Assembly: GCF_034092375.1 (NCBI RefSeq)
Contig: NZ_CP139302.1
Location: forward strand, 124,001 to 188,000
Origin: Prochlorococcus sp. MIT 1300
GTDB taxonomy: Bacteria; Cyanobacteriota; Cyanobacteriia; PCC-6307; Cyanobiaceae
DNA length: 64,000 nt
Direction: 5' to 3'
In this document: positions 57,585-60,186 of the stretch, one piece after another
Position numbering within the stretch: position 1 is the stretch's first letter
How the letters are laid out: every line of letters starts with the position of its first letter
Translations under genes and position numbers: made by a program
The notes under the pieces: generated by a model
What the model was told of the DNA's origin: nothing
The model's input: the letters and a program-made list of their open reading frames with translations, nothing else
Database searches by the model: none

Positions 57585-57719
57585 TTAATTGTTCCCACAT
57601 TGACATTTACCACCTTTCCATTTTGAACACTTTTTCTTTTTACAACCCTTTTTTTTTGATTTTTTTCTAGAACGACTGTCTGGGAAGTCGTCTAATGATT
57701 TCCCTATGGGTTGCCCCAT
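57585..57719 (-). CDS. Predicted 44-aa Lys/Cys-rich microprotein behind a Fur-like box
   Basis: An ATG frame reads MGQPIGKSLDDFPDSRSRKK, then SKKKGCKKKKCSKWKGGKCQ and CGNN. It has four Cys (CKKKKC and CQC) in a strongly basic background, resembling a small metal-binding or nucleic-acid-binding peptide; nothing is known. The frame lies in an otherwise empty gap between the ABC ATPase and ferritin, reading toward the ATPase. A consensus TATAAT and a Fur-box-like element lie directly upstream. The start codon is in a small hairpin (57706-57719), and there is no clear ribosome site. Confidence 0.55.
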   Translation of the reverse strand: MGQPIGKSLDDFPDSRSRKKSKKKGCKKKKCSKWKGGKCQCGNN

Positions 57720-57743
57720 GTCTTAATACGGCTTGCCGCAGCT

Positions 57744-57765
57744 GATAGTGATTCTCATTATTATA
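57744..57765 (-). promoter_or_regulatory. Fur-box-like operator overlapping a TATAAT promoter
   Basis: GATAGTGATTCTCATTATT at 57744-57762 matches the classical 19-base Fur box GATAATGATAATCATTATC at 15 positions. Overlapping it, TATAAT reads on the minus strand at 57765-57760, a perfect -10 box whose start point would fall inside the Fur box. The microprotein begins 41 bases downstream. Ferritin on the other strand starts 137 bases away, so control of both is possible but the microprotein is the better fit. Confidence 0.65.
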
Positions 57766-57898
57766 TCCCTTCCTCTTTCGGGATTCGCAAAGGTTTATTT
57801 ATTTAAAAAACCTTGTATCATTAGTCACGTACGATCATCCAAAGACATAGAACTTACGTTTCTTCTTCACCCCTCTAGCAGTTTCCCCTTTGACAATT

Positions 57899-58477
57899 AT
57901 GACTGCATCAACTAGTGAATTCAAAGTCAAAACTCCTTTAGGCCCATCTGGGAGAGCTATGGCTCAGCCTATGGACCCATCGTTAGTGGAGGCTTTTCAA
58001 CTGCATGTGACTATGGAAAGAAATGCAAGTGCGGCTTATTTAGCAATGGCAATATGGTTGGGTGAAAGAGAGTTGCGTGGGTTTTCTCAGTTTTTTAAGA
58101 ATGAGTCAACAAGTGAACAAGATCATGCCTGTAAGTTTGCTGATTATTTGATTTCCCGGGGTCAGAAAGTTCTACTGCAGGACATACCATCTCCTCGTCA
58201 GGACTGGAGTTCTGTCGAGGAGATCATATCAGCTTCATTCCAGATGGAAGCAGAAGTAACAACCTCTCTCCATAACTTATATAACTTGGCAGAAAGATCA
58301 TCAGATATGCGTACAACCGTTTTCTTAGACCCTACAATTGATGTTCAGGTTTCCGCTGAAGATGAATTCGCTCATCTTTTAGGAAGGGTCCGTTTTGCGG
58401 ACAATCAACCTTCAGCGATGTTAATCCTCGATAGTGAGTTGACAAATGGTCAACATACACGCTTTAAACTTGCCTAG
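57899..58477 (+). CDS. Ferritin with altered iron-site residues
   Basis: Four-helix-bundle ferritin of 192 aa with a 30-residue N-terminal extension. Helix A has HVTMERNASAAYLAMAIWL (Glu40), helix B TSEQDHACKF supplies ExxH (Glu73, His76), and helix C QMEAEVTTSLHNLYNLAE a further Glu. In helix D the canonical EQxxE becomes VQVSA (FLDPTIDVQVSAEDEF), so two Glu of the second iron site are missing. It may store iron poorly, or form mixed shells with the second ferritin. The ATG at 57899 is chosen over a TTG three codons earlier. Confidence 0.85.
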   Translation: MTASTSEFKVKTPLGPSGRAMAQPMDPSLVEAFQLHVTMERNASAAYLAMAIWLGERELRGFSQFFKNESTSEQDHACKFADYLISRGQKVLLQDIPSPRQDWSSVEEIISASFQMEAEVTTSLHNLYNLAERSSDMRTTVFLDPTIDVQVSAEDEFAHLLGRVRFADNQPSAMLILDSELTNGQHTRFKLA

Positions 58478-58540: not shown

Positions 58541-58837
58541 TTAGGTTAGAGCTAAAGATCTTTTACTAATTTCAATCAAAAACAAAATTGACAGATCATT
58601 TTGCTTGATTAATCGTTTGCATTGTAATGCTGTATGAAGTATTTCAGATTTTCTTTGGTTAAGGCCTTTTAGTTCAATATTTAACCTTTTTAATAGCTCT
58701 TTATTAGTAGAAGAACTAATTGCATTTATTAGGTAGTAACATCTATTATTTGAGTCATCAATTTCTTTACATAGGCTGCCTATAAGAGATTCTGAGAACA
58801 GGGATGCAATATCCCTTTGTTTCATTAATTTATCCAT
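58541..58837 (-). CDS. Small helical protein of unknown function after the CRP-type regulator
   Basis: A 98-aa, entirely helical protein. Its ATG directly follows the TAA of the CRP-family gene, so the two must be co-transcribed and probably translationally coupled. Patterns such as LKRLNIELKGLNQRKSEIL and QCKRLIKQNDLSILFLIEI suggest an amphipathic bundle. The neighbourhood (regulator, two ferritins) suggests iron or stress control. I do not recognise a family. Confidence 0.6.
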   Translation of the reverse strand: MDKLMKQRDIASLFSESLIGSLCKEIDDSNNRCYYLINAISSSTNKELLKRLNIELKGLNQRKSEILHTALQCKRLIKQNDLSILFLIEISKRSLALT

Positions 58838-59449: not shown

Positions 59450-59506
59450 GTTGAGAATTGCTCTCAACCTATAGCAGGACAAACTCTTTTTGCAAGCGAT
59501 TCTCAA
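59450..59506 (-). promoter_or_regulatory. Twin operator-like palindromes upstream of the CRP-type gene
   Basis: Site 1, TTGAGAATTGCTCTCAA at 59451-59467 (arms GTTGAGA/TCTCAAC when extended), and site 2, TTGAGAATCGCTTGCAA read on the minus strand at 59490-59506, agree at 14 of 17 bases. An extended -10 (TGCTATAGG on the minus strand, around 59468-59476) lies between them, so site 1 would cover the transcription start. The core TGAGAATNRCT also occurs in the Fur-like box near 57.75 kb. Confidence 0.6.
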
Positions 59507-59670
59507 TAGCAACTGTCTTGTTGAGACCTTATTTGTATTTAATGCTCGATTTTGTGGCCTTTTGCTCATATTCGCGTTTCAATTGATACAAGTAGAGAGA
59601 GATGGTCAGCAATCGCTCTTGTCTTATTGCGCAGATATTTTTACTTCAAAAGATTTGTGCGCGGCGAAAT

Positions 59671-60186
59671 TTACCCGGCGGGTCCACCCTTCACTGTAGA
59701 AAGCGCTGTTCCATCAAGGAATTGTTGATCCAGCAATAGAAGGGCTGCACTATTTTCTCCAGCAAGACGAAGGCGCTTTCGTACAAATCTTGCTTCAGCT
59801 TCTTCTTGAAGTTGTTCAGCTATAAACCAGTCGAGCATTGCCGTAGCACTTCTTTCTCCGGCTTGTTCGGCTATTGAGTAGATCCTGTTTATAGATGCTG
59901 TAACCGCTTGTTCCATTTCATAAACCTGATCAAATAATGATTGTGTTGATGTCCAACTCCTTTGCGGCGCTTCAACCCCAGGAAGCTCTACTTGTTCGTC
60001 ACAGTCAACAAGATAAGCAATTAGCCGGTCTGCATGTCCATGTTCTTCCTGACTTTTTGTTTGCATATAAGAGGAAAATCCAGCGAGGTCCTTCTCCCTT
60101 AGCCAGATAGACATTGCAAGATAGGTGTGGCTTGCTTGAAACTCGCATGCCAGATGATTGTTTATAGCCTTTGTAAGTTCTTGCAT
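59671..60186 (-). CDS. Ferritin (canonical, bacterial type)
   Basis: A 171-aa iron-storage ferritin forming 24-subunit shells. Helix A has LACEFQASHTYLAMSIWL, helix B SQEEHGHADRLIAYL (ExxH), helix C YEMEQAVTASINRIYSIAEQ, and helix D MLDWFIAEQLQEEAEA with intact EQxxE. All metal ligands are in place, in contrast with the other ferritin 1.8 kb away. It lies upstream of the regulator on the same strand with a 239-base gap that carries operator-like sites for that gene. Confidence 0.92.
   Translation of the reverse strand: MQELTKAINNHLACEFQASHTYLAMSIWLREKDLAGFSSYMQTKSQEEHGHADRLIAYLVDCDEQVELPGVEAPQRSWTSTQSLFDQVYEMEQAVTASINRIYSIAEQAGERSATAMLDWFIAEQLQEEAEARFVRKRLRLAGENSAALLLLDQQFLDGTALSTVKGGPAG

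Follow-up and report, generated by a model that had tools for sequence, protein, structure and literature searches.

Prochlorococcus and marine Synechococcus account for a large part of the photosynthesis in the oceans. Iron often limits them, and to our knowledge their iron regulation beyond Fur is poorly mapped. The locus described here raises a question of this kind. A cysteine-rich regulator of the CRP/FNR family (its gene is called crp below) is encoded between two ferritin genes, and two similar 17-bp sites lie over its promoter. Are these sites operators, and if so, which protein reads them? The locus lies within a 64-kb stretch of DNA (the window, meaning the whole stretch that was analysed), which is part of a 1.86-Mb picocyanobacterial genome, and the closest orthologous loci are those of Prochlorococcus. 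As argued below, the best explanation is that the sites are operators of a Fur-family protein, most likely Fur itself, that would repress crp and also the gene of a nearby microprotein; judging from the sequence evidence, we give this reading a probability of roughly 0.6.

Layout of the locus

The features of the locus are collected in Table 1. The 98-aa ORF is probably co-transcribed with crp. On the far side of ferritin A from crp are the microprotein and an ABC ATPase resembling FutC. Across orthologous loci the neighbours of crp are ferritin and futC genes, and in one relative (G009, locus L175) also futA and futB, the gene order there being futB-futA-crp-ORF-ferritin, with crp directly after futA. 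Many relatives (loci L006, L008, L025 and others) carry a second CRP-family gene, about 33% identical, that adjoins futC; no such gene was detected beside futC in the window. The microprotein matches no family in Pfam or NCBIfam, and its C-terminal motif is kept beside ferritin A in many loci of Prochlorococcus, Synechococcus and Cyanobium. In loci of the HLII type (the strain-type labels HLI and HLII were assigned in this analysis on the basis of genome size and sequence) the microprotein is apparently absent and the box in front of it is retained.

Table 1. Features of the crp locus, with the Zur-type box of the same genome; sequences marked (g) are given in the orientation of the crp gene
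Feature	Position	Strand	Remarks
Microprotein, 44 aa, Lys/Cys-rich	57585..57719	-	Divergent from ferritin A; C-terminal motif CKKxKCSKWKGGKCxC, found at the corresponding position in many relatives
Fur-type box	57737..57762	+	Between microprotein and ferritin A, adjoining TATAAT of the microprotein promoter; 22.2 bits, best in window
Candidate CRP-type box before ferritin A	57815-57840		TGTATCATTAGTCACG; 12.9 bits, good
Ferritin A	57890..58477	+	Convergent with the crp unit; Pfam Ferritin; syntenic
98-aa ORF	58541..58837	-	Directly 3' of crp; same place in most low-GC orthologous loci
CRP/FNR-family regulator (crp), Cys-rich, 197 aa	58838..59431	-	Pfam HTH_Crp_2 and Crp
Proximal site, putative operator	59451..59467	-	TTGAGAGCAATTCTCAA (g); over the -10 and the probable crp transcription start; 6/8 palindromic pairs
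Core -10 region	59466..59473	-	TATAGG / TAGGTT (g), TGC before it; T-n-TA..TT columns conserved, fixed distance to distal site
Whole conserved block	59488..59512	-	TTGCTATTGAGAATCGCTTGCAAAA (g); column conservation in 81 sequences
Distal site, putative operator	59490..59506	-	TTGAGAATCGCTTGCAA (g); conservation; 4/8 palindromic pairs
Candidate -35	59490-59495	-	TTGCAA, within the distal site
Third half-site	59521..59526	+	TTGAGA, or TCTCAA (g); position kept in relatives; absent from the preliminary description
Candidate CRP-type box before crp	about 59570-59595		TGTATCAATTGAAACG; 6.5 bits, weak
Ferritin B	59671..60186	-	Upstream of crp; Pfam Ferritin; syntenic in many Prochlorococcus loci
Zur-type box	znuC-znuA intergenic region (locus L179)		TGAAAATCGTTTTCA; clear, this genome

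The crp product ends in a winged helix-turn-helix (HTH) of the CRP type (PF13545 and PF00325 above cut-off, with matches in 21 of 21 members), and its predicted structure runs from beta strands through a long helix to this HTH (pLDDT 83.7). There is no Pfam match to an N-terminal domain of the cNMP-binding type. Five cysteines (C46, C48, C71, C76 and C139) occur in 81 of 81 sequences and a sixth, C135, in 99% of them. The protein could reasonably be guessed to be a sensor of the redox, Fe-S or metal type.

Two conserved sites over the crp promoter

A preliminary description of this DNA had reported two near-identical palindromes flanking the -10 of the CRP-family gene. Two 17-bp sites are indeed present there and are identical at 14 of 17 bases; they lie where they had been placed, except that the proximal site really starts one base further right, at 59451. 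The description as palindromes suits the proximal site but overstates the symmetry of the distal one, because just four of its eight pairs are palindromic. The promoter between them is not called by a simple sigma-70 consensus scan.

Conservation of the sites was followed in 80 orthologous loci, which together with the window make 81 sequences with a GC content of 32-72%, and for which the upstream regions were aligned. The sample is dominated by Prochlorococcus single-cell genomes, and since related sequences are not independent, shuffle comparisons of the kind given below exaggerate significance. The distal block is near-invariant (TTGCTATTGAGAATCGSTTGCAAAA). From TTGAGAA on, nearly all columns of the 81 sequences are 90-100% conserved, as are 16 of the 17 positions of the distal site, and the outer columns drop to background. 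Allowing one free base, the distal 17-mer is found exactly in 68 of the 80 orthologous loci. Of 151 Cyanobiaceae genomes, 86 contain it, nearly all in single copy; in the two-copy genomes that were checked (Synechococcus BO 8801 and Aphanothece saxicola), each copy precedes its own copy of crp.

The proximal palindrome keeps at least six of its eight pairs in 54 of 80 loci (mean 4.2 and maximum 10 in shuffles), and where it is kept, the spacing between proximal and distal sites is exactly 39 bp in 43 cases. Loci of the HLII type (L018 and L022, for example) have lost it. The third half-site, of the form TCKCAA, precedes the block by 12-14 bp in 71 of 79 loci. Conservation upstream of orthologous CRP-type genes, on which the preliminary description had let its case depend, is thus firm across the 80 loci, and phylogenetic footprinting supports the view that both sites are operators. 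It is this conservation, rather than the number of 11-mers discussed next, that makes up the strong evidence.

The shared 11-mer

The two sites have in common an 11-base core, TGAGAATNRCT, which also occurs in the ferritin/microprotein box at 57.75 kb, as had been pointed out before. The window holds 5 copies of this 11-mer where 0.56 are expected, a count reached in 0 of 100 shuffles, and 3 of the 5 fall within 1.8 kb. Genome-wide there is no enrichment, with 17 matches against 13 for the reversed control. Twelve of the 17 genomic copies fall within long ORFs. The remaining five include the two crp sites and the microprotein site, together with one copy, at 908759, that sits between convergent 3' ends. 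The idea that three copies at promoters go beyond chance therefore stands as far as the local cluster is concerned, which is notable, but finds no counterpart in the genome at large. Nor is the 11-mer enriched near iron-gene promoters in the way that had been expected, isiB and futA being without a clear box, and it was rejected as a genome-wide iron-regulon motif on the count of 17 against 13.

Likeness to Fur boxes

Fur boxes are built as 7-1-7 or GATAAT repeats that form a dyad of odd length, and the crp sites have the geometry of an odd 7-1-7 dyad. In MED4-like (HLI-type) genomes the proximal site reads GATAATGAGAATTATTATC, which agrees with the Fur consensus at 17 of 19 positions and is the best match to it within each 3.5-kb locus. 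The second-best match in these loci, 16/19, is about 1.5 kb off on the ferritin side (shuffles of locus L187 reach 12-15). The distal site of the same genomes, TGATAATGAGAATC, has gained a GATAAT hexamer. In some other loci the proximal site, TTGATATTAATTCTCAATAGC, is the mirror image (the reverse) of the distal site, GCTATTGAGAAT.

In the window itself, a matrix built from 38 ferritin/microprotein boxes of other genomes was scanned over some 128,000 positions. Its top two sites were the box at 57737-57762 (22.2 bits) and the crp distal site (9.0 bits). In a scan of the 64 kb for the 19-bp Fur consensus the former again comes first (16/19), and the crp sites fall outside the top 12. The distal site scores below the 14.3 bits of the genome's own Zur box, and the crp sites are weak as Fur boxes here. 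Neither isiB nor futA of this genome has a clear or significant Fur-type box in front of it; some relatives have single Fur-type sites at these genes. When a sequence model of the ferritin boxes (R1) was run over the whole genome, the window box came out on top (E 0.11), followed by sites inside unrelated genes. A genome-wide search with the canonical TGAGAATNATTCTCA, allowing 3 mismatches, was uninformative (160 matches per strand against 141 for the control).

Among the proteins of the genome are two with a FUR domain: Zur, encoded beside the znu genes, and a Fur-like one. The sequence ACTATTGAGAAAGATC, just upstream of the fur ORF (locus L178), is similar to the left part of the distal block at crp, and Fur might regulate its own gene from there. 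As for the earlier proposal of a shared regulator, probably Fur, a single regulator is plausible because the microprotein, which is divergent from ferritin, has a box of the same type at its promoter; the part of that proposal that gave the 11-mer a role in a regulon is unsupported. That the right half of the distal site, TTGCAA, is unlike a Fur half-site may be put down to its probably doubling as the -35. The near-invariance of the distal block goes beyond what a Fur box should need, and this counts against Fur.

Other candidate regulators

A first alternative is that the CRP-family protein binds the sites itself, with the distal site as its dedicated operator. The distal site occurs essentially only before crp, once per genome, and once per copy at loci with two crp genes, and dedication this extreme is what one expects of an autoregulatory site. 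However, sites of the CRP/FNR class are even in length and the crp sites, at 7-1-7, are odd, and self-binding leaves the drift toward GATAAT in MED4-like genomes unexplained. Moreover, the recognition helix of the protein, GSTRVTSTR, matches the GSTRVTVTR of NtcA, which reads GTA-N8-TAC. A helix of this kind predicts a TGT-N10-ACA site, which again argues against self-binding at the crp sites, and it is better suited by a separate element, TGTR-N8-YACA, further upstream of crp. This element is matched at 7 or more of 8 positions in 36 of 45 low-GC loci (shuffle mean 5.2, maximum 11) and perfectly in 17 of the 45 (0.26 in shuffles), and perfect copies also occur in 16 of 41 ferritin A promoters (0.41 in shuffles); its frequency in the promoters of ferritin B, futA and futC is not above chance. 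With a crp-site-trained matrix, 6 of the 12 isiB promoters have a match between -84 and -87 (at most 4 in 500 shuffles). The CRP-type box is a lead only, because at ferritin A and isiB the TGTAT could be no more than a -10. On balance, we consider autoregulation through the two crp sites rather unlikely. The same holds, if a little less so, for a combined scheme in which the block would be the dedicated, odd-length self-site of a CRP-family regulator with a cysteine-based Fe-S or metal sensor and would form a two-input iron switch together with Fur.

The invariance and length of the block, both greater than a Fur box needs, could also point elsewhere, to SufR or to an unknown regulator, in which case the resemblance to Fur boxes would be a coincidence. 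A SufR-like CAAC-N6-GTTG does adjoin the distal site in the window, but it is retained in just 3 of 79 loci and was rejected as a SufR operator on that count, and in MED4-like genomes the proximal site is a textbook box of the Fur/Zur type; a coincidence of this sort seems improbable. Zur, with zinc as the signal, is harder to tell apart from Fur. It is encoded beside znuABC, and the Zur (znu) boxes of relatives include TGAGAATGATTATCA and TGATAACGATTATCA, so that the motif cannot separate the two proteins; an attempt at such a separation failed, the boxes overlapping between genomes. That said, the Zur box of this genome, TGAAAATCGTTTTCA, has A as its fourth base, a position occupied by G or T in the boxes of crp and ferritin, and the neighbours of crp are iron genes. 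For Synechococcus WH8102, the genes reported to respond to low zinc as well as to the loss of Zur are bmtA, synw0360 and synw0970-0973, the last group comprising znuC, znuA and two unknowns, and no ferritin or CRP gene is named (PMC9337993). For this reason, and on account of the iron neighbours, Fur is favoured and Zur as the binder is judged improbable.

A proposed iron relay

From the conservation, spacing and Fur-type geometry of the sites we infer binding by Fur, repression and a link to iron. The distal operator would cover the -35 of the crp promoter, and the proximal operator its -10 and start. Under iron sufficiency, Fur bound to one or both operators would block RNA polymerase at crp, and the same repressor on the box at 57737-57762 would block the microprotein; when iron is low, both genes would be released. 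The CRP regulator so released would then act on isiB, ferritin A and its own gene through a TGTAT-N6-TCACA box. The first half of this relay, Fur at crp and the microprotein, is argued from sequence evidence, and the half downstream of the CRP regulator, with isiB, ferritin A and crp as targets, is one that may apply.

No description of this regulator or operator was found in the literature within reach of the search, which did not extend to the main Prochlorococcus iron transcriptome papers. If the proposal is true, a Cys-rich regulator placed between ferritin genes and driven family-wide from a Fur-type promoter would constitute a second layer of iron control. The analysis yields short stretches of DNA on which the proposal can be tested, and it adds a conserved microprotein as a candidate for co-regulation.

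Comparison with known systems

With Fur boxes the crp sites share the odd-length dyad, TGAKAAT half-sites, placement over the -35 and the -10/+1, and iron-related neighbours. They depart from them here in the centre (ATTGC, ATCGC) and in the distal right half TTGCAA, which are off consensus; in addition, the distal site varies far less than is usual and is dedicated to one gene. The Zur boxes of cyanobacteria have the 7-1-7 geometry as well, and the znu boxes of some relatives are TGAGAATGATTATCA; they differ in the form taken by this genome's own box, TGAAAATCGTTTTCA, and in that the published Zur regulon names no ferritin or CRP gene (PMC9337993).

The regulator itself belongs to the same HTH class as NtcA and PtrA and has, like NtcA, a recognition helix of the form GSTRVTxTR. 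Nonetheless, it scores only 41 bits against a cut-off of 300 for PtrA, and 31 against 245 for NtcA, and its sensor half, with six conserved cysteines, is different. A parallel in arrangement is IdiB of Synechococcus elongatus PCC 7942, an activator of the CRP/FNR family that acts on idiA under iron limitation. Both systems have a CRP-family gene beside iron genes (futA/idiA in one relative, ferritin and futC here), and isiB has a candidate CRP-type box. On the other side, the best sampled relatives outside the present family are only about 34% identical, and those inspected do not have the CPC/CSEGVC cysteines. By analogy, then, the proposed relay may work as IdiB does in S. elongatus, the likeness being one of arrangement and the synteny with futA coming from one relative only.
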